This document shows, one piece after another, positions 35,061-43,973 of a DNA stretch of 64,000 nucleotides. The notes beneath the pieces were generated by a model. The model was given only the letters and a program-made list of their open reading frames with translations, was not told the DNA's origin and made no database searches. How positions within the stretch are numbered: the first letter of the stretch is position 1; every line of letters begins with the position of its first letter. The position numbers were made by a program, and so were the translations under genes. This DNA comes from Stenotrophomonas maltophilia (lineage in GTDB: Bacteria > Pseudomonadota > Gammaproteobacteria > Xanthomonadales > Xanthomonadaceae): positions 1,404,001 to 1,468,000 of the forward strand of contig NZ_CP015612.1 in the NCBI RefSeq assembly GCF_002138415.1, written 5' to 3'.

Positions 35061-36005
35061 TCAGGCGCGTGTGGCCGGGCGCCCGAGCAGGCCTTCCGGC
35101 AATGCCGGAATCGGCGTGCGTTCGTCCTGCGCCTGTTCCAGCAACCAGTCGATGAACAGGCGCGCGGCGTGGCTCGGCGGTTGCCCTTCGGCGTGCACCA
35201 CGTGATACGCATAGCGCGCTTTCAGTGCCGGGCCGGGCAGGCGTACCACTTCGTAGCGCTGCAGGTAGGGCTGCGCGATGTGGGTACGTGCCAGCACCGC
35301 GCCCATGCCGTACACCGCGGCACGCATCGCATCGGTACTGTCGGCGAAGGTATGCATCGGCGGCAGTGGCGAGGGTGGGCGCACGCCGGCATGGCGGAAC
35401 CAGTCACGCCAGCCCTGCGGCGACAGATCGGTCAGCAGCGGCAGGTCGGCGATGCGCGCCGGATCGACCAGCGTTTCAACCCCGGCCAGCGCCGGCGAGG
35501 CCACCGGGAACAGGTAGTCATCCATCAGGTGCTGTGCACGCAGGCCCGGCCACTGGCCCAGGCCATAGCGGATGCCGACTTCCGGGCCGTTGTCGTCGTA
35601 GCGATCCAGCCCGCTGCCCGTGTGCAGTTCGATGCGGATGTGCGGATGGGCCTGGGTGAAGCGTGGCAGCCGTGGCAGCAGCCAGCAGTAGGACAGCGAG
35701 CGCAGCGTGGTGATCCGCAGCGGCACGCTGTCGGCATCCGGCTGCAGGTGATGGGCGACGGCCGCGACATCGGAGAAGGCGGCGCTGGCGGCGTCGGCCA
35801 GCTGCCGGCCCTCGGCAGTCAGGCGCACGCCGCGGGCGTGGCGCAGGAACAGCCGGGTTTCCAGCACCTCCTCCAGCCGGCGCACATGGTGGCTGACCGC
35901 GCTGGCGGTCAGGTGCAGCTCCTGGGCGGCCTGGGCGAAGTTCTGGTGGCGCGCGGCGACCGCGAACACGGCCAGTGCGGGGAGCAGGGAAGGGCGTAGC
36001 TGCAT
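35061..36005 (-). CDS. LysR-family regulator (GcvA-like)
   Basis: The protein is 314 residues. The N-terminal winged helix-turn-helix (about 5-62) reads LPALAVFAVAARHQNFAQAA, then LHLTASAVSHHVRRLEEVLE, which matches the GcvA/AmpR subgroup. The C-terminal effector domain (about 90-300) has LRITTLRSLSYCWLLPRLPR and TDLSPQGWRDWF. It is divergent from an EamA transporter gene; such pairs are usually regulator and target. MQLRPSLLPALAVF is preferred over a methionine four codons upstream as it fits the family length. Confidence 0.88.
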   Translation of the reverse strand: MQLRPSLLPALAVFAVAARHQNFAQAAQELHLTASAVSHHVRRLEEVLETRLFLRHARGVRLTAEGRQLADAASAAFSDVAAVAHHLQPDADSVPLRITTLRSLSYCWLLPRLPRFTQAHPHIRIELHTGSGLDRYDDNGPEVGIRYGLGQWPGLRAQHLMDDYLFPVASPALAGVETLVDPARIADLPLLTDLSPQGWRDWFRHAGVRPPSPLPPMHTFADSTDAMRAAVYGMGAVLARTHIAQPYLQRYEVVRLPGPALKARYAYHVVHAEGQPPSHAARLFIDWLLEQAQDERTPIPALPEGLLGRPATRA

Positions 36006-36014
36006 GTCGAGCCT

Positions 36015-36027
36015 CAAACCATATTTG
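36015..36027. promoter_or_regulatory. Candidate LysR site in the lysR-DMT divergent gap
   Basis: CAAACCATATTTG has 4-bp arms around CCATA. It is the only AT-rich symmetric stretch in the 115-bp divergent region. It is close to the lysR start codon, as expected for autoregulation. The evidence is weak. Confidence 0.3.
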
Positions 36028-36120
36028 TGGCTGGCAGCGATACTACGCGCTTGTGCGGCGGGCGTCTGCGCTCGATCCTATCGGCCTTGGCGAGGAACAG
36101 ACGATGGACGGAGGCAGGGC

Positions 36121-36993
36121 ATGAATGCGGTCCCACAGGCGGCCGAGCGCGACTGGCGCACGCCGCTGGAATTGACCCTGCTGGGCGCCATCTGGGGCTG
36201 CTCGTTCCTGTTCATGCGGGTGGCGGTGCCGTCGTTCGGCCCGTTTGCCCTGGTCGAGGTACGGCTGGTGCTGGGCGCGCTGGTGCTGCTGCCGTTCCTG
36301 TGGCGCGCCCGCGCACAGTTCCCGCTGCGGCGCTGGCTGTGGCTGGCACCGATCGGCCTGATCAATTCCGCGTTGCCGTTCGTGCTGTTCGCCTATGCGG
36401 CGGAGCGGGCTCCTGCGGCCATCGGCGCGATCTGCAATGCGATGACCGTGCTGTTCGCTGCACTGATCGCGTTCCTGTTCTTCGGCGAGAAGATCGGCAT
36501 GCGCCGTGCTGGCGCACTGCTGGTCGGATTTGCCGGCGTGGTGGTGCTGGCCACGGCCAAGGTGTCCGGGCTGAGCATCGGCACCGCGGTGCTGGCGGGT
36601 GCAGCGGCCTCGCTGCTGTACGGCCTGGGCGTGAACCTGGTGAAGCGGCATATGACCGGCCTGCCGTCGGCGGCGGCGGCGGCAGCCACGCTGTCGTGCG
36701 CCTCGCTGTGGATGCTGCCGATGGCGGTGACGCACTGGCCGCAGGCGTCGATTCCGCTCAAAGCGTGGGGCGCGGCGATCGCGCTGGGCGTGGCCTGCAC
36801 CGGCCTGGCGTTCCTGATGTTCTATCGCCTGATCGGCCGCATCGGACCGTCGCGTGCATCGACCGTGACCTACCTGATTCCGTTGTTTGGTGCGGCCTTC
36901 GCGTGGTTGTTCCTGGGTGAGCCGGTGACGCTGCAGATGCTGATTGCGGGTGCGTTGATTCTGGGTAGCGTGGCGGTGAGTCAGAAGGGCTGA
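36121..36993 (+). CDS. EamA-type DMT transporter, divergent from lysR
   Basis: The protein is 290 residues with ten hydrophobic helices in two EamA repeats; LLGAIWGCSFLFMRVAVPSF begins the first, and FGAAFAWLFLGEPVTLQMLI ends the second. It probably exports small metabolites. The ATG at 36121 is the only one that leaves a short hydrophilic head before the first helix; the ORF upstream is open but has no helix. It shares a promoter region with a GcvA-like LysR regulator, its likely controller. Confidence 0.87.
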   Translation: MNAVPQAAERDWRTPLELTLLGAIWGCSFLFMRVAVPSFGPFALVEVRLVLGALVLLPFLWRARAQFPLRRWLWLAPIGLINSALPFVLFAYAAERAPAAIGAICNAMTVLFAALIAFLFFGEKIGMRRAGALLVGFAGVVVLATAKVSGLSIGTAVLAGAAASLLYGLGVNLVKRHMTGLPSAAAAAATLSCASLWMLPMAVTHWPQASIPLKAWGAAIALGVACTGLAFLMFYRLIGRIGPSRASTVTYLIPLFGAAFAWLFLGEPVTLQMLIAGALILGSVAVSQKG

Positions 36994-37009
36994 GCGCGCC
37001 GACGCACTG

Positions 37010-37032
37010 GTAGTGCCGGGCGCTGCCCGGCA
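37010..37032. repeat. GTAG-type REP (SMAG-like)
   Basis: GTAGTGCCGGGC-GCT-GCCCGGCA. It lies just upstream of the structured repeat copy at 37059. Confidence 0.8.
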
Positions 37033-37058
37033 GCTCTTTTCCACGCCTGCGGAGAGGT

Positions 37059-37250
37059 GTCACTTTCTTTGCGCGTGCAAAGAAAGTAACCAAAGAAACA
37101 CGCCGCCAGGCCGCGAGCCGGTGCTGCGCACCGGTGCCCTGCGCTCCTCGGCCCGTCGAGGGACGGCGCGGGAACTCGCTGCGCTCAGACACCCGCGCCT
37201 CTTCGCCCTCGCCAGACCTGCGGTGCTCGGCTCGCTCAAGGCGGACCCAA
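37059..37250 (+). repeat. Structured repeat of about 190 bp, copy 1
   Basis: It begins with the hairpin ACTTTCTTTGC-GCGT-GCAAAGAAAGT (37062-37087) and AACCAAAGAAA. Next comes CCGGTG-CT-GCGCACCGG. A two-part stem follows: outer CGAGGG/CCCTCG and inner GGCGCGGG (37165-37172) / CCCGCGCC (37192-37199), closing a loop AACTCGCTGCGCTCAGA plus two bases. GCTCGGCTCGCTCAAGGCGG then ACCC closes the unit. Copies 2 and 3 are at 37330-37520 (inverted) and 42709-42895. Short frames here are not convincing genes. Confidence 0.85.
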
Positions 37251-37329
37251 CGTCCAAAGCCGTCGCATCATTCGCCGCGCAGGGTCCGGCGCTGTCGTTG
37301 CCCGCGCTCGCGGCTGTGGCCTTTGATCT

Positions 37330-37520
37330 GGGTCCGCCTTGAGCGAGCCGAGCATCGCAGGGGAATCAGGGGCGAAGAGGTGCCGATGTCTGAGCGCAGC
37401 GAGTTCGGCACCGTCCCCTGATTCACCGAGAAGCGCAGGGTACCGGTGCGCAGCACCGGCTCGCGACCGGCGGAACGTTTCTTTTGGTTACTTTTCTTTG
37501 CGTACAAAGAAAAGTAACGC
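37330..37520 (-). repeat. Structured repeat of about 190 bp, copy 2 (inverted)
   Basis: Read on the minus strand it has the hairpin GTTACTTTTCTTTG-TACG-CAAAGAAAAGTAAC (14 bp perfect, 37487-37518). It then has the CCGGTGC/GCACCGG stem, outer stem GAATCAGGGG/CCCCTGATTC, and inner stem GGTGCCG/CGGCACC around the same conserved loop. It is tail-to-tail with copy 1, 79 bp apart. The 573-bp gap 36994-37566 consists of one REP and these two copies. Confidence 0.85.
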
Positions 37521-37566
37521 CCATGAACGGTGAAGCACCTTCAGCACGCGTAACGTGCGGAAACCA

Positions 37567-38469
37567 TCACCGCACCGGCACCGGAATATTGCAGAGATCG
37601 ATATGCCCCGCCGGGCGCTTGTAGAAATCATCCACGCGATTGCGACGCGCCTCCACCGTATCGGCGAAGGTCTTCGAGTCGGTACGCAGTACCTGGATCG
37701 GAGTGCGCTCGGCCACCGGCACATCGCTGGCGCGGCGGATCGACACGATCGGCGTGCGCAGCTTCGGGTCGGTGTAGAAGCCCATCGGCGCCGGGCCGCG
37801 CGGGGTTGCACTGAGCAGTTCCATGCCCTTCAACACGCGACCGACCAGGGTGATGTTGCGGTCCAGCTGGCGCGGCGACTGACCGGTCACCACGTACAGT
37901 TCGGCGCCGATGCTGCTGTCTTCCTCGTTGCTGCGGCCGGCGCCGAGCATGCCGTAGCAGTGCGCCAGCCAAGCCTTGCCGGCCTGCGGGTCCTGGCCGA
38001 CCGGGAAGCCGTCGACGAATCCGGTCTGCGCGGCCCAGCTATCGCGATCCGGCAGCACGCTCACCTTCAGTCCGGTGCTGGCGCGTTCGAATTCGGCCGG
38101 CAGCTTGCGTTCGGCGCTACCGAACGGCTTGGCCTTGGCGGCGTCATCGGCGTCGGCATCGCCGAACTGCACCACGAAGTTGTCCTGCGAGCGGTAGATG
38201 CTGGTGCCGTCCCAGAAGTGCTCGTGGGCGAAGGTCTGGATGTTGGCGACATGGCGCGGAGCGAACTGCGGTGCCAACTCGATGATCACCCGTCCGGCCG
38301 GCAGGTCCATGTACAGCAGGTTGGCCGGGTCCGGGGTGCGCCAGTCGCTGGCCGCTGACGCATCGAGGATCTGCTGCGGGCTGCGGTAGGGCGTGGCGGC
38401 ACTGGCCAGGGCGGGCAGCAGGCAGGCGAGGGCGAGGGCGGTCAGGGCAAGGCGACGAAGGTGCGGCAT
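37567..38469 (-). CDS. Periplasmic cyclophilin-type peptidyl-prolyl isomerase
   Basis: The protein is 300 residues with a signal peptide (about 1-24, ending ASA). The cyclophilin domain starts with [20 protein letters not shown] and contains [33 protein letters not shown] and [20 protein letters not shown], matching the family core of catalytic and binding residues. An insertion of about 60 residues between QFGD and the second half makes it longer than the usual secreted PpiA. It catalyses proline isomerisation during envelope protein folding. Confidence 0.88.
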
Positions 38470-38569
38470 GGGAACCCCGGAACATGAACGAGGCTTCGAT
38501 TCTGCGCGAGCGGTCCGGCCACGCCAACCGGCACGATGACTAACGACACATTCGCTATACCGAACTTCG

Positions 38570-38594
38570 CACTACTGTGGACTTCAACGTAGTG
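38570..38594. promoter_or_regulatory. Inverted repeat before padR (CACTAC-N13-GTAGTG)
   Basis: Perfect 6-bp arms with a 13-base spacer end 11 bp before the padR start codon. PadR repressors often bind such symmetric sites over their own promoter; binding here is inferred. The right arm also resembles the GTAG of REPs, which is an alternative. Confidence 0.4.
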
Positions 38595-38605
38595 GAGGGC
38601 CGGTC

Positions 38606-38971
38606 ATGTCCGAGGACGATGTCCAGCTGAAGAAGTTCCAGAAGGAGCTCAGCGCCGGAACCGTGTCGCTGGCCCTGTTGGCGGTGCTGGCCCGGGCCGG
38701 CGAGCCGCTGTACGGCTACCTGATCGCCAAGGAGCTGGAGCGGGTGGGCGAGGGCGTGCTGAGCGGCAAGCAGAGCGCGCTGTACCCGGTACTGCGCAAC
38801 CTGGAGGGCGCCGGCCTGCTGGAAAGCCATGTGGAGCCGTCCAGCAGCGGGCCGCCGCGGCGCTATTACCGCATCAATGAACGTGGCCGTGACGCGCTGG
38901 CGCAGTGGCGCCAGGCCTGGCAGGCCACCCGCGATTCCGTCGATTCCGTGTTGGAGGGGGTACCGCAATGA
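38606..38971 (+). CDS. PadR-family transcriptional regulator
   Basis: This 121-residue protein is one winged helix domain with the PadR pattern: KELSAGTVSLALLAVLARAG, then EPLYGYLIAKELERVGEGVL, SALYPVLRNLEGAGLLESHV and RRYYRINERGRDAL, followed by a short C-terminal dimer helix. GTGGAGGGCC provides the ribosome binding site. The stop overlaps the ATG of the HAAS gene by 4 bp, forming the common PadR plus DUF1700/HAAS pair in which the regulator controls a membrane partner. Confidence 0.92.
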   Translation: MSEDDVQLKKFQKELSAGTVSLALLAVLARAGEPLYGYLIAKELERVGEGVLSGKQSALYPVLRNLEGAGLLESHVEPSSSGPPRRYYRINERGRDALAQWRQAWQATRDSVDSVLEGVPQ

Positions 38972-39957
38972 ACGACCCGAGCCTGGCAGGCCGAGCTCTG
39001 CCGACCACCATTCCGCAGTACCTGGCGCAGCTGCGCGCGGCGCTGGAAGGCGCCGACCCGGCGATGGTGCAGGACGCGTTGTACGACGCCGAGGAGTACC
39101 TGCGTTCGGAGTTGGCCGCGCAGCCCGGCCGCAGCGAGGCCGAGGTGATCGCCGACGTCGCCGGCAGCTATGGCGCGCCGGACGAAGTGGCCGAGATCTA
39201 CCGCGAGACCGAAGTGACGGTGAACCGCGCGCTGCGTACGCCGCGCGCGGATACCGCGCCGGTGCTGCGTGCTGCGGCGGAAGCCAGTGGCGTCGAGCCG
39301 GCCGCACCGCCGCCGGTGCCGGTGCAGCGCTCGCTGCTGACGCGCTTCTTCGGTGTGGTGACCGATCCACATACCTACGGCGCGCTGTTCTACATGCTGC
39401 TGTCGCTGGCCACCGGCATCTTCTTCTTCACCTGGGTGGTGACTGGCCTGTCGCTGTCGCTGGGCCTGCTGATCCTGATCATCGGCATCCCGCTGACCGT
39501 GCTGTTCTTCGGTTCGGTGCGCGGGCTGGCGCTGCTGGAAGGGCGCCTGGTGGAAGCGCTGCTGGGCGAGCGCATGCCACGTCGTCCGCGTTACACCGAC
39601 CGCAGCCGCACCTGGCTGCAGCGCATCGGCGACATGTTCACCGATGGCCGCACCTGGCTGACGCTGCTGTACTTCGTGCTGATGCTGCCGCTGGGCGTGA
39701 TCTACTTCACCATCGCGGTGACGCTGCTGTCGCTGTCGCTGAGCCTGATCTGGGCGCCGGTCGCGGCGATCTTCAGCGGCGACATTCCGGGCGTCTACGT
39801 CGACGGCGTGAACGTGCTGCCGATGGCGGCCTCGCCGCTGGTGGCGATCGTGGTTGCCGCCGTGGGCGCGCTGCTGCTGCTGCTGACGATGCACCTGGCA
39901 CGCGGCATCGGCAAACTGCACGGGCTGATCGCCAAGAACCTGCTGGTGCGGCTGTAA
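38968..39957 (+). CDS. HAAS/DUF1700-type membrane protein, partner of PadR
   Basis: The protein is 329 residues. An N-terminal helical HAAS domain (about 12-85, IPQYLAQLRAALEGADPAMV, then DVAGSYGAPDEVAEIYRETE) precedes a proline-rich linker and about four to six hydrophobic helices in two repeats (140-200 and 230-320); FYMLLSLATGIFFFTWVVTG and YFVLMLPLGVIYFTIAVTLL are parallel halves. Such proteins are called sensor-domain or permease-like. The overlap with padR (ATGA) and the shared promoter argue for joint function, perhaps in envelope stress. Confidence 0.8.
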   Translation: MNDPSLAGRALPTTIPQYLAQLRAALEGADPAMVQDALYDAEEYLRSELAAQPGRSEAEVIADVAGSYGAPDEVAEIYRETEVTVNRALRTPRADTAPVLRAAAEASGVEPAAPPPVPVQRSLLTRFFGVVTDPHTYGALFYMLLSLATGIFFFTWVVTGLSLSLGLLILIIGIPLTVLFFGSVRGLALLEGRLVEALLGERMPRRPRYTDRSRTWLQRIGDMFTDGRTWLTLLYFVLMLPLGVIYFTIAVTLLSLSLSLIWAPVAAIFSGDIPGVYVDGVNVLPMAASPLVAIVVAAVGALLLLLTMHLARGIGKLHGLIAKNLLVRL

Positions 39958-39975
39958 GCGGGAATCCACGCTTCG

Positions 39976-40079
39976 GTAGGTGCCAACCTTGGTTGGCACA
40001 ATCCATCAGGTACCGGGATTCATGGTAGAGCGCCAACCAAGGTTGGCATCTACCAGGGCGTACCGACCAAGGTCGGTAC
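39976..40079. repeat. Cluster of three REP-like palindromes
   Basis: The three units are GTAGGTGCCAACCTTGGTTG (39976-39999 in full), the inverted GCCAACCAAGGTTGGC flanked by GGTAGA/TCTACC (40024-40054), and GTACCGACCAAGGTCGGTAC (40060-40079). They fill the gap between the convergent HAAS and PHA depolymerase genes. Confidence 0.8.
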
Positions 40080-40093
40080 CCACCAGGGCCGAG

Positions 40094-41401
40094 TTACCCC
40101 GCCTTGCGGCGCAACGGGGTGACGTTGCTCTTCTTCTTCGTGACCTTCGCCGCCGGCGCTTCGGCATGCGCGGCGAAGAAGTCGCGCACCTTCGGGTACA
40201 CCACTTCGCGCCAGCGACGGCCGCTGAAGATGCCGTAGTGGCCGGCACCTTCGACGATGAAATGCTCGCGTCGGTCAGCGTCGATGCCGGTGCACAGCGC
40301 CTGCGCGGCTTCGGTCTGGCCGAGGCCGGCGATGTCGTCCAGCTCGCCTTCGATGCTCAGCAGGGCGGTATCGCGGATCGCCGACGGATCGACCTTCTCG
40401 CCGTTGACCACCCACTCGCCACGCGGCAGCAGGAAGTCCTGGAACACCACGCGGATGGTATCGAGGTAGTACTTGGCCGGCATGTCCAGCACCGCGTTGT
40501 ACTCGTCGTAGAAACGACGGTGCGCGTCGGCGTCTTCCAGGTCGCCCTTGACCAGGTCGGTGTAGAAATCCCAGTGCGAGCTGAAGTGGCGGCTCGGGTT
40601 CATCGACAGGAAGCCGGCATGCTGCAGGAAGCCCGGGTACACGCGGCGGCCGGCGCCGGGATAGCTGGCCGGCACGGTGTGGATGACGTTGTTCTCGAAC
40701 CACGACAGCGGGTTCTGCGTGGCCAGGTTGTTCACTGCGGTCGGGCTGCAGCGTGCATCGATCGGGCCACCCATCATCACCAGCGTACGCGGCGTCGGTT
40801 CGCCACGGCTGGCCATCAGCGAAACCGCAGCCAGCACCGGAACGGTCGGCTGGCACACGCTCACCACGTGCAGGCGCTCCACGCCGAGGTGGCGGATGAA
40901 TTCCTGGATATAGGCGATGTAGTCGTCCAGGCCGAACTCGCCTTCGCTGGACGGCACCATGCGCGCGTCCACCCAGTCAGTCACGTACACGCGGTGGTCG
41001 CGCAGCAGCGTGCGCACGGTATCGCGCAGCAGCGTGGCGTGGTGGCCCGACAGCGGCGCCACCACCAGCACGAACGGCTGGTTGAGCATGGTGTGCAGCT
41101 GGTCGGCTTCATTGCTGTGGCGCTTGAAGCGCAGCAGCTTGCAGAACGGCTTGCTCACTTCCTCGTGCACGACGATCGGCACGCGCTCGCCATCGACGTC
41201 GATTTCGTTGATGCCCCACTCGGGCTTCTCGTAATCCTTGCCGATGCGGTGGAAGAGTTCATTGACCGCCGCCAGGCGATCAGCGCCGGGCATCTGCGAC
41301 CACCAGTGGCCCTGGTTGGCGAAGAATCTGGCGTTGGCCTGGGCCTGGTGCACCCAGGGGGCGAGCAGGTTGCGGGTCAGTTCGTGCAGTTGATAGAGCA
41401 T
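40094..41401 (-). CDS. phaZ: Intracellular polyhydroxyalkanoate depolymerase
   Basis: The protein is 435 residues, soluble, with no signal peptide. It has the PHB_depo_C-type arrangement: MLYQLHELTRNLLAPW at the start, PFVLVVAPLSGHHATLLRDT in the middle and VVSVCQPTVPVLAAVSLMAS, in which Cys replaces the lipase-box serine as in intracellular PHB depolymerases. EGELDDIAGLGQTEAAQALC and VEGAGHYGIFSGRRW supply the Asp and His. The C-terminus is lysine-rich (KVTKKKSNVTPLRRKAG). It would mobilise carbon stores. No PHA synthase gene is in the window, so another polyester or thioester substrate cannot be excluded. Confidence 0.88.
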   Translation of the reverse strand: MLYQLHELTRNLLAPWVHQAQANARFFANQGHWWSQMPGADRLAAVNELFHRIGKDYEKPEWGINEIDVDGERVPIVVHEEVSKPFCKLLRFKRHSNEADQLHTMLNQPFVLVVAPLSGHHATLLRDTVRTLLRDHRVYVTDWVDARMVPSSEGEFGLDDYIAYIQEFIRHLGVERLHVVSVCQPTVPVLAAVSLMASRGEPTPRTLVMMGGPIDARCSPTAVNNLATQNPLSWFENNVIHTVPASYPGAGRRVYPGFLQHAGFLSMNPSRHFSSHWDFYTDLVKGDLEDADAHRRFYDEYNAVLDMPAKYYLDTIRVVFQDFLLPRGEWVVNGEKVDPSAIRDTALLSIEGELDDIAGLGQTEAAQALCTGIDADRREHFIVEGAGHYGIFSGRRWREVVYPKVRDFFAAHAEAPAAKVTKKKSNVTPLRRKAG

Positions 41402-41494
41402 GACGACCGAATATGTATGGTCATATGTTGCCGCGCAGCATATCCCATCCGGGTGTCCCGCAGGTTAAGTCGGCTGAAAATAATGAATCCGGAT

Positions 41495-42085
41495 TCACAT
41501 CCGTTCCAGCGCGGCCGCATCGCCTGCCAGGGCGGGGCCGAGCCAGCAATGCGACCCTACCGGCTGCAGGCCGTGCCGGGCCAGCGTCCGCCGGTACCAG
41601 CGCGCCGGGCGGGCCTGGAAGCCGTCGTGGTCGCCCTCGAACGCATCCTCGGCGGCGAAGGTCTCCAGGAAGGCCACGCCGCCGGTCAGCTCGGCCACGC
41701 CGGCCAGTCCTGCACGCAGCTCGCGGTCGGGCACGTAGTGCATCACGTCCGAGCAGATCAGCAGGTCGACCGGGGCACAGGGCCGCAGCCAGGCGAAATC
41801 GCCGAAGCGGGCCATGTGCAGGTTGCGGGTCCTGCCGTAGCGGCGCACAGCGTACTCGCTGCTGTCGAAGCCGAGGTATTCGACCTTCGGACGCAGCTTC
41901 AGCAGGGGCGCACGCCAGGCGCCTTCACCGCAGCCGATGTCCAGCACACTGCGGATCGGCCGCTCCAGGTAGTACTCGGCACTGGCCACGGCCAACGCGA
42001 CCTTTCGCGCCAGGCGGGCGCTGCCGCCGATGTCGGCACGGCGGTACCAGCGTTGGAAATAGGCGGCGTCGTAGGTCTTGTCCAT
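41495..42085 (-). CDS. SAM-dependent methyltransferase (class I)
   Basis: The protein is 196 residues. The SAM-binding motif reads SVLDIGCGEGAWRAPLL (motif I), followed by VEYLGFDSSEYAVRR and APVDLLICSDVMHYVPDREL. The size and C-terminal part resemble small NodS/TPMT-like methyltransferases; the substrate is unknown. The start MDKTYDAAYFQRWYRR is preferred, since the in-frame upstream extension is the antisense of hemJ. Its stop codon lies in a perfect 14-bp palindrome TGAATCC-GGATTCA (41484-41497). It is divergent from the HemJ-like gene. Confidence 0.82.
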   Translation of the reverse strand: MDKTYDAAYFQRWYRRADIGGSARLARKVALAVASAEYYLERPIRSVLDIGCGEGAWRAPLLKLRPKVEYLGFDSSEYAVRRYGRTRNLHMARFGDFAWLRPCAPVDLLICSDVMHYVPDRELRAGLAGVAELTGGVAFLETFAAEDAFEGDHDGFQARPARWYRRTLARHGLQPVGSHCWLGPALAGDAAALERM

Positions 42086-42232
42086 GGGGCGGTCGCAGTG
42101 GTGAAAACGGCGCTTATCGTACGGCGTTGCGGCGTGCCATGCGTCGATGTGTCGCGGCACTGGCGCGTGGGGTGGCCCGGCCACGGCATGCGAGAATGGC
42201 CGCCAACCTACGCCAGCCGCCGGAGCGAGCGC

Positions 42233-42688
42233 ATGCAGAGCTACTACTGGGTCAAGACCTTCCACATCGTGTTCGTGGTGGCGTGGATGGCCACGGTGTT
42301 CTACCTGCCGCGCATTCTGGTCAACCTGGCCGAGACCGCAGGCCAGCCGGCGGTGACCGAGCGCCTGCAGCTGATGGGCCTGCGCCTGTACCGCTTCGGC
42401 CACTCGATGTTCGGCCTGGCGTTCCTGCTGGGTCTGGTGCTGTGGCTGGGCTACAAGGTCATTCCGGATTTCCCGACGATGGTTGCCTCGGGCGGTGCCG
42501 GTTGGCTGCACGCCAAGCTGGGCCTGGTCGTGGTGCTGCTGGCGTATTTCATCTGGATCGGGCGGCTGCTGAAGGGCGTGGCCAAGGGCAGGGCGCTGCC
42601 GTCGTCGCGCGCGCTGCGCTGGATCAACGAGATCCCGTTGCTGGCCTTCATTCCGATCGTGTGGCTGGTGTTGGCCAAGCCGTTCTGA
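42233..42688 (+). CDS. hemJ: HemJ-like (CopD family) protoporphyrinogen oxidase
   Basis: This 151-residue membrane protein has four hydrophobic helices. The N-terminal YYWVKTFHIVFVVAWMATVF, then YLPRILVNLAE, is the hallmark of HemJ (TIGR00701): the histidine of the KxxH motif binds heme, and the lysine near the centre (LHAKLGLVVVLLAYF) is the second key residue. It oxidises protoporphyrinogen IX to protoporphyrin IX in heme synthesis, replacing HemG/HemY. No other heme genes adjoin. Its length agrees with the family. A structured repeat copy begins 20 bp after its stop. Confidence 0.82.
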   Translation: MQSYYWVKTFHIVFVVAWMATVFYLPRILVNLAETAGQPAVTERLQLMGLRLYRFGHSMFGLAFLLGLVLWLGYKVIPDFPTMVASGGAGWLHAKLGLVVVLLAYFIWIGRLLKGVAKGRALPSSRALRWINEIPLLAFIPIVWLVLAKPF

Positions 42689-42708
42689 GATCCCGCGCGC
42701 TCGAACAT

Positions 42709-42895
42709 GTCACTTTCTTGCTCGTGCAAGAAAGTAACCAAAGAACACGCCGCCGAACGCGAGCCGGTGCTGCGCACCGGTTCCCTGCGCTTCTCGGTGA
42801 ATCAGGGGACGGCGCCGAACTCGCTGCGCTCAGACACCGGCGCCTCTTCGCCCCTGATTCCCCTGCGATGCTCGGCTCACTCATGGCGGACCCGA
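42709..42895 (+). repeat. Structured repeat of about 190 bp, copy 3
   Basis: The hairpin is ACTTTCTTGC-TCGT-GCAAGAAAGT (42712-42735); then AACCAAAGAA, CGAGCCGGTGCTGCGCACCGG, outer stem GAATCAGGGG/CCCCTGATTC and inner stem GGCGCCG/CGGCGCC around AACTCGCTGCGCTCAGA plus three bases. It is closer to copy 2 than to copy 1. It takes up most of the gap 42689-43013 between hemJ and accA. Confidence 0.85.
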
Positions 42896-42920
42896 ACGTC
42901 AACGGCCGCAGCTGCACCCA

Positions 42921-42943
42921 GTAGATTCATGCCATGCGTAGAT
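42921..42943. repeat. Degenerate GTAG-type REP
   Basis: GTAG then ATTCATGC-CAT-GCGTAGAT; compared with the copy at 2608 the stem has changed bases that no longer all pair, so this looks like a decaying copy. Confidence 0.6.
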
Positions 42944-42961
42944 GCTGTGCGAGGTGCAGAC

Positions 42962-42994
42962 AAAAAAAGCCGGGCATCTGCCCGGCTCTTTTTT
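42962..42994. terminator. Intrinsic terminator downstream of accA
   Basis: AGCCGGGCA-TC-TGCCCGGCT is perfect over 9 bp, with A7 on the left and TTTTTT on the right. On the minus strand it ends the long housekeeping cluster just past accA; on the plus strand it would stop read-through from hemJ. Confidence 0.9.
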
Positions 42995-43013
42995 GTCCGA
43001 CGTCAGGTAGCGC

Positions 43014-43973
43014 TCAGGCCGCTTCGTACGTGCCGTAGCTGCGCAGACGGGTGTAACGCTGCTCCAGCAGCTGCTCGGTGGACAGCTTTTCCAGCGCGTC
43101 CAGTTCGTTCAGCAGCACGGCCTTCAGGCGCTTGGCCATCTGCGTCGGGTTGCGGTGGGCGCCACCGGTCGGCTCGCGCACGACCTTGTCGACCAGGCCC
43201 AGGCTCTTCAGGCGCGGTGCGGTCAGGCCCAGCTGCTCGGCGGCATCCTTGGCCTTGCCGGCATCCTTCCACAGGATCGAGGCGCAGCCTTCCGGGGTGA
43301 TGGTCGAGTACACCGAGTACTCCAGCATCACGGTGCGGTCGCCCACGCCCAGCGCCAGCGCGCCGCCGGAGCCGCCTTCACCGATCACGGTGCAGATGAT
43401 CGGCACCTTCAGTTCGGCCATCTCGATCAGGTTGCGCGCGATCGCTTCGGACTGGCCGCGCGATTCGGCGTCGATGCCCGGCCAGGCGCCGGCGGTGTCG
43501 ATCAGGGTCAGCACCGGCAGGCCGAAGCGCTCGGCCATCTTCATCAGGCGCAGTGCCTTGCGGTAGCCCTCCGGCTTGGGCATGCCGAAGTTGCGCTTGA
43601 TCTTTTCCTTGGTGTCGCGGCCCTTCTGGTGGCCGATCACCATCACCGAACGGCCGTTGATGCGGGCCAGGCCACCCATGATCGCCTTGTCGTCGGCGAA
43701 GGCACGGTCGCCGGCCAGCTCCTGGAACTCATCGAACATGACGCGGAGGTAGTCCGCGGTGTACGGGCGCGACGGATGACGGGCCAGCTGCAGCACCTGC
43801 CACGAGGTCAGGTTGCGGAAAATCTGCGCGGTGCGCATGCGCAGCTTGTCCTGCAGCGCGTGCACTTCCGCCTCGACATTGACCGCCGGCCCGGCACTGG
43901 CGTTGCGCAGTTCCTGGATCTTGGCTTCCAGGTCGGCGATGGGTTGCTCGAAGTCGAGGTAGTTCGGATTCAT
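43014..43973 (-). CDS. accA: Acetyl-CoA carboxylase carboxyltransferase subunit alpha
   Basis: The protein is 319 residues, standard for AccA. The start [19 protein letters not shown] is the family N-terminus. [57 protein letters not shown] and [18 protein letters not shown] are the expected active-site segments of the crotonase fold; two glycine-rich loops shape the oxyanion holes. With AccD it transfers the carboxyl group from biotin to acetyl-CoA, giving malonyl-CoA for fatty acid synthesis. It is the last gene before the terminator at 42962 and follows an unrecognised lipoprotein gene by 113 bp. Confidence 0.96.

Follow-up and report, generated by a model that had tools for sequence, protein, structure and literature searches.

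A folded, covarying repeat of Stenotrophomonas maltophilia and relatives, usually one half of an inverted pair

What are the three similar, hairpin-rich units of about 190 bp that lie between genes in a 64,000-nucleotide stretch of Stenotrophomonas maltophilia DNA (contig NZ_CP015612.1, positions 1,404,001 to 1,468,000; hereafter the window)? An earlier note, made from the letters of the window, had proposed a selected RNA or single-stranded DNA (ssDNA) substrate; the selected fold stands, but the proposal was incomplete, since the unit is usually one half of a two-ended composite. We read the family as a dispersed, non-autonomous, two-ended element with folded ends, comparable to doublets of repetitive extragenic palindromes (REPs), known as REPINs, and to miniature inverted-repeat transposable elements (MITEs), and give this reading a probability of roughly one half (about 0.48).

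The copies (37058-37250 on the + strand, 37330-37520 on the − strand and 42708-42895 on the + strand) share 82-92% pairwise blastn identity, and both the sequence and minimum-energy folds bear out the hairpins that the note had described, the CCGGTGC/GCACCGG hairpin among them. The inner stems compensate as claimed (GGCGCGGG/CCCGCGCC, GGTGCCG/CGGCACC and GGCGCCG/CGGCGCC in copies 1, 2 and 3), and the 17-nt loop AACTCGCTGCGCTCAGA is the same in all three; the 5' hairpin, described as perfect over 11, 14 and 10 bp, is so within those base pairs, but a C·A mismatch lies just outside them in copies 1 and 3. The host genome (G000, 4.67 Mb) holds 14 blastn matches with E values from 9.9e-98 to 5.0e-16, so the repeat is not due to chance, and the window's three copies are ordinary members of a wide proteobacterial family. 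Missed by the note were a closing helix (P1), a mismatch-bearing helix (P3), a tail, and the arrangement of copies 1 and 2 as a single convergent composite, whose unlike halves, B and A, have 79 nt between them; an A half on its own, copy 3 adjoins a REP-like hairpin.

A conserved fold with compensatory changes

In the fold, P1 encloses P2 and a helical series, P3-P4-P5; its 37 pairs are kept across the class. P3 joins CCCTGCGCTNCTCGG with CCTGCGRTGCTCGG, two similar and highly conserved strands that form three one-by-one mismatches, and the apical motif AACTC..TCARACA, itself strongly conserved, flanks a centre of either GCTNCGC or a longer hairpin. The lengths of P2 and P4 differ among copies, which speaks against a protein-coding fragment.

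We scored covariation in two alignments. A4 comprises 118 copies that model R1 detected in many genera, at 80 named loci; its fit to this model works in its favour. A2, made with MAFFT and not fitted, comprises 33 Stenotrophomonas copies, namely 29 of the 34 representatives at 93% identity (the other five, whose H1 has an insert or damage, were left out) plus four divergent copies added by hand. In A4, 93.0% of the 4084 cells pair and 33 of the 37 pairs show two-sided change, with a covariation score of 0.581 against 0.132 when shuffled and at most 0.077 when slid; the A2 score is 0.329 against 0.119 when shuffled. For both alignments, none of the 500 shuffles and no slid register reaches the covariation score, the paired cells or the doubly changed cells. 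The number of A2 pairs with two-sided change was reached by 3 of 500 shuffles, and the count of pair types does not rise above the shuffles, 360 of 500 reaching it for A2 and 53 of 500 for A4. The unit is a folded structural element, of RNA or ssDNA, whose compensatory changes go beyond the shuffled and slid controls. By these controls, the conserved loop with covarying stems is indeed the mark of selection on a folded single strand, and the note's proposal survives the test that it had set beforehand, refutation by a lack of covariation among many copies, with shuffles and slides used instead of R-scape.

Covariation with conserved loops and mismatches is also typical of RNA families, and the unit could be a functional RNA, either an intercistronic or 3'-untranslated-region element or a multicopy small RNA, whose spread is secondary; we regard this as rather unlikely. 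Rfam 15 gives no match over the window (4227 families at curated covariance-model thresholds), which counts against an RNA and agrees with the note, which knew of no named family for it; with E values up to 1, the interval 37000-37560 returns a trypanosomatid snoRNA and two microRNAs, all far below the thresholds. This strongly covarying, widespread structural family has no Rfam entry, so annotation probably misses it or renders it as spurious small open reading frames (ORFs). It also constitutes a large natural data set on the maintenance of a fold in dispersed DNA.

The many copies foreseen in xanthomonad genomes are there, and the family extends beyond that scope to Burkholderiales, Nitrosomonadales and others. 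Within the genus sample, 27 of 41 genomes have matches (host included) and 14 have none; model R1 finds the family in 32 of 184 genomes, and 30 of 164 genera, of the class sample, counts that are lower bounds, few candidates having been scored per genome. Under strict filters 7 of the 249 genomes in the phylum sample match, likewise a lower bound, all 7 within the same class. An exact-pattern scan gave at least 120 stretches, resolving to at least 80 loci. Among the matches listed are Stenotrophomonas, Xanthomonas, Luteimonas, Lysobacter, Pseudoxanthomonas, Variovorax, Polaromonas, Rhodoferax, Acidovorax, Xenophilus, Silvimonas, Methylophaga, Nitrosomonadales, Wenzhouxiangella and one deltaproteobacterial metagenome-assembled genome. 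Six plasmid records match, one Variovorax replicon over 37% of the query at 71% identity and five in the H1 region only; viral contigs gave no match to the exact pattern.

Some parts of the unit vary in their own fashion. Inside H1, or in place of part of it, units at L075, L085, L004, L029, L031 and L042 have up to about 75 nt of GC-rich, structured sequence. Xanthomonad units end in hexamer-like microsatellite tails, for example (CAACGG)n, (AGCCAA)n and (GCCGAA)n (L158, L166, L169, L195, L204, L224, L233), and these varying tails resemble those of eukaryotic retroelements. The P2 loop is different in all five of a set of orthologous copies (L045, L048, L049, L052, L057) while the P2 stem is constant, and it looks hypervariable in nine near-identical pairs, where 5 of 27 loop sites changed against 50 of 2133 others, mostly at one locus.

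Inverted pairing of two unlike ends

Neighbouring units less than 2.5 kb apart are inverted in 46 of 46 cases across 109 loci (80 named plus 29 unnamed), an arrangement that would be odd for an RNA; 37 pairs are convergent and 9 divergent, all 9 in xanthomonad loci, and none is direct. The two halves of Stenotrophomonas pairs differ in P4, which is GAATCAGG in type A and CCGTCGAG in type B: 20 of 21 distinct pairs are A/B and one is B/B, many being orthologous and so not independent. The A/B rule also holds in one distant genome, G136, where a single A-B composite has been dispersed to 13 sites; the same unlike halves align over both parts of all 13 composites (the automatic parser detected both halves in 8), and the flanks differ beyond a shared end sequence. 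Lists of P4 from Polaromonas, Variovorax and Luteimonas show an A/B-like tendency by eye. Within pairs the P5 arms are alike (0.76 versus 0.45; n = 26, the parser having skipped 5 of 31 pairs), and P4 and P2 are not; lineage may be the source of this P5 likeness, the shuffle having crossed genera.

At individual sites, composites are present, absent and oppositely oriented among strains. The site of copies 1 and 2 could be parsed in 26 of 30 fetched loci, which comprise 11 intact composites (5 with B and 6 with A on the left, relative to the flanking genes), 3 partial ones (L080, L090, L092) and 12 loci without. At the site of copy 3, parsed in 28 of 30 loci, 3 are as here, 5 carry the unit and REP in opposite orientation and 20 have no unit, several of these carrying a REP. 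The middles of pairs run from 34 nt (between model ends) upward, and some contain palindromes, REPs or genes.

All five wide pairs in the 109-locus set are convergent. The cargo of wide convergent pairs includes HEPN_AbiU2 (L206, 2e-25), a DUF2971-like protein (L199, 21.8 bits against a cut-off of 22) and proteins without a family (L138, L139, L140, L143, L190); a defence library gave a single match, with an E value of 0.065, to the seven cargo proteins. Some wide pairs may be unrelated neighbours.

A two-ended mobile element would account for these arrangements as follows. Each end, of about 200-280 nt, would fold when single-stranded into P1 (P2)(P3-P4-P5) with its conserved P3 mismatches and apical loop, the unlike ends A and B, which differ in P4, usually standing face to face with a short middle, a REP or one to a few genes between them. 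A trans-acting enzyme would recognize both folded ends, as the REP-associated tyrosine transposases (RAYTs) are thought to do with REPINs, and would move or copy the element, whose copies would persist behind genes, the places of presumably least harm. If this is true, many soil and clinical bacteria possess an enzyme acting on folded ends, which may contribute to the shuffling of accessory genes, HEPN genes for example. A bolder version, that the family is a new, class-wide class of mobile nucleic acid with homologous but distinct folded single-strand ends, able to frame accessory genes and moved by proteins of a family so far unconnected with it, is speculative and in our view rather unlikely.

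Several observations weigh against a two-ended mobile element. No mobile gene is among the 25 largest recurrent neighbour groups, which resemble common operon genes, for example liv ABC and RND genes (proteins were named by reading, and no insertion-sequence (IS) library was used), and no autonomous copy of the element was found. No consistent target-site duplication was seen by eye in the 13 G136 composites, whose edges are soft. Direct neighbours occur outside the counted loci, at L142 (1278-1435 and 1801-1954, both −), in G148 (1613925 and 1614380, both −) and in G389 (170541 and 170638, both −). Another genome, G102, has 16 matches, in which P1 is lengthened and H1 lacking, with a single unit in 9 of the 10 regions read, so a unit need not be paired. 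Deletion accounts for some absences, L092 retaining an end, and the convergent intervals of L298 and L299 (3.8 and 5.9 kb) contain several frames, including, by reading, an IS110-like transposase, an IS5-like frame and a Y1 frame in L299. Recurrence at shared gene pairs across several genera is unlike random insertion, though the copies at such sites are not one another's closest relatives. The gene calls come from a simple, crude ORF script.

Both neighbours were called for 45 of 70 single units, of which 22 lie tail-tail, 12 + 7 in tandem and 4 head-head. This tail-tail preference resembles that of REPs and does not separate RNA from DNA; a tail-tail bias is reported for several Pseudomonas fluorescens repeat families in PMC2718517. 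Together with the palindromes in pair middles, the preference would suit a passive hairpin-rich spacer, acting as a terminator, mRNA stabilizer or topological site, with old copies spread by conversion; the recurrent intergenic sites with non-orthologous copies are what conversion should leave. Such a spacer, however, has no need of conserved loops, P3 mismatches or unlike A and B halves, and the 13 dispersed G136 composites with differing flanks require spread; we judge it improbable.

Molecule, strand and partner enzyme

Gene context and base pairs bear on whether the unit acts as RNA. Units lie close behind stop codons, and for 10 of the 11 G102 units the + strand runs sense to the gene upstream; 6 of these 10 are tail-tail and hardly informative, leaving a tandem ratio of 4 to 1 with one of each from one pair. 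Against an RNA, single units in informative tandem contexts are unbiased in orientation (12 versus 7, p 0.36), and those of G000 are opposite in 2 of 2. The P3 U·G pair is kept on the + strand in 115 of 117 A4 copies, as an RNA would favour, and outside P3 the + strand has more G·U than A·C cells in A4 (152/66) and A3 (24/18); the reverse holds in A2 (9/22) and, within A4, in the variable portion of P4 (A·C 33 versus G·U 9, our own count from the table). The outcome differs by alignment, so this test points both ways.

The complement was considered as the true strand from RNA folding energy, being more stable in 53 of 58 representatives, and this was rejected as compositional, the dinucleotide shuffles giving 489 of 580. 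With the apical loop replaced, the complement is favoured in 38 of 49, and under DNA parameters some of its excess remains (56 of 58 versus 211 of 290). In the predicted complement folds of 82 representatives, 52 triloops are of the GNA type and 23 of other types, and 2 GNRA tetraloops occur, the apical GNA counts being not independent but one conserved motif. Hairpins of d(GCGNAGC) are stable. The GNA triloops of the complement suggest ssDNA, and with the DNA parameters they mildly favour the complement as DNA, as leads only.

The inverted, two-ended layout is that of REPINs, REPs stand beside or inside many composites, with GTAG seen in those adjoining units, and families of terminal inverted repeats (TIRs) are reported from S. 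maltophilia in PMC3733652. The unit might be a REP- or TIR-type repeat mobilized by a Y1 transposase of the RAYT or TIRYT kind, which would make it a TIRtron product as PMC3733652 uses the term. Of the 90 Y1_Tnp genes in 25 unit-bearing genomes, four (G169 C8, G176 C317, G093 C5 and C11) stand no more than 0.6 kb from a listed unit, which by a rough estimate exceeds even placement. Across genomes, however, Y1_Tnp is not associated with the unit (25 of 32 unit-bearing genomes versus 102 of 152 others, p 0.29), and seven of the 32, G102 among them, have none. In a scan of 36 of the 90 Y1 loci with R1, 33 had no unit, 3 had one on one side only and none was flanked on both sides; Y1 genes stand by units at L370, L371, L373 and on G176 contig 317, on one side only where scanned, and one of the three one-sided loci is a 144-aa IS200-like frame. 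The four Y1_Tnp genes of G000 (L104-L107), which may be the known RAYT/TIRYT genes of this species, carry their own inverted flanking repeats of 25-52 bp, which do not match the unit. A Y1 enzyme is possible in some genomes but cannot serve all. The four genes near units slightly raise the case for RAYT mobilization, which nevertheless strikes us as distinctly improbable, and slightly lower that for the two-ended element with a different enzyme.

Known repeats and the surroundings in the window

We file the element as a variant of structured non-autonomous repeats, outside any named family. Like REPINs and bacterial interspersed mosaic elements with their RAYT (Y1 HUH) enzymes, the unit is non-autonomous and palindromic and occurs in many copies, in inverted pairs and behind genes; unlike a REP of 20-40 bp it is several times longer, with an internal branched fold and two unlike ends, and it lacks their cross-genome tie to Y1_Tnp, though a few Y1 genes are close by. 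It shares with the TIRs of TIRtrons (PMC3733652) the S. maltophilia group, dimers and self-complementarity, but those TIRs flank Y1 transposase genes, and the repeats of 25-52 bp at the Y1 genes of G000 do not match the unit. MITEs and mobile insertion cassettes likewise have inverted ends, lack a transposase and in some cases carry cargo genes; here, however, no parent IS came up among the recurrent neighbour groups and no clear target duplication was seen, and the ends are large, structured and covarying across the class. Integron attC sites are also folded single strands with single-gene cargo and conserved mismatches, but form direct arrays, whereas the unit lies mostly in inverted pairs. 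The P. fluorescens repeats R200, R26 and R178, also intergenic and of 101-352 bp (PMC2718517), are comparable, but a link to them would be a guess. We recognized no paper describing the element, although subscription journals, figures or supplements could hold one.

In the window, unit 1 (type B) has H1 at 37058-37091, P1 5' arms at 37101-37107 and 37112-37119 with a 3' arm at 37229-37244, the P2 hairpin at 37118-37134, P3 strands at 37137-37151 (5') and 37217-37230 (3'), P4 at 37152-37162 with about 37206-37215, P5 at 37164-37172 with 37192-37199, and the loop at 37173-37191. Unit 2 (type A), facing it on the − strand, has H1 at 37487-37519, the P1 5' arm at 37458-37473, P2 at 37443-37459, P3 at 37426-37440 with 37348-37361, P4 at 37415-37424 with 37363-37372, P5 at 37406-37412 with 37379-37385, and the loop at 37387-37405. 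The 79-nt middle (37251-37329) lacks a REP in this strain; at the same place several relatives have a GTAG-REP-like hairpin. Directly 5' of unit 1, a weak palindrome-like stretch (37040-37057, +) takes the position of the H0 hairpin of many other copies, as judged from its sequence and those copies, and a GTAG-type REP-like palindrome (37009-37034, +; a type described in PMC3733652) adjoins the composite. The neighbouring genes converge: an EamA transporter frame upstream (36004-36993, +; 1.6e-40 for 36124-36990, start uncertain) and a cyclophilin-type prolyl isomerase downstream (37567-38469, −; 4.9e-21).

Unit 3, the single type A half on the + strand, starts 19 nt 3' of a stop codon that ends a + gene with no Pfam match. 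Its H1 lies at 42708-42739, P1 at 42748-42765 (5') and 42874-42889 (3'), P2 at 42764-42780, P3 at 42783-42797 with 42862-42875, P4 at 42799-42808 with 42851-42860, the P5 5' strand at 42811-42817 and the loop at 42818-42836; the interval 42896-42943 (+) holds the tail and a GTAG-REP-like hairpin at 42921-42943. The gap between unit 3 and accA (43014-43973, −; 2.6e-147), which converges with the gene preceding the unit, holds a hairpin resembling a two-way intrinsic terminator (42962-42994, read from the sequence).

Elsewhere, several genera have units next to, or between, the same genes of RND-efflux-like or liv-transporter-like type, in copies that are not nearest relatives; loci with such recurrent gene pairs are L162, L171, L202 and L218, and L165, L168, L176, L187, L210, L230 and L234. 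Open frames of 109-197 aa cross the units of the window at 37013-37342 (+), 36758-37192 (−) and 42707-43300 (+); they are probably spurious and may be annotated as hypothetical proteins.

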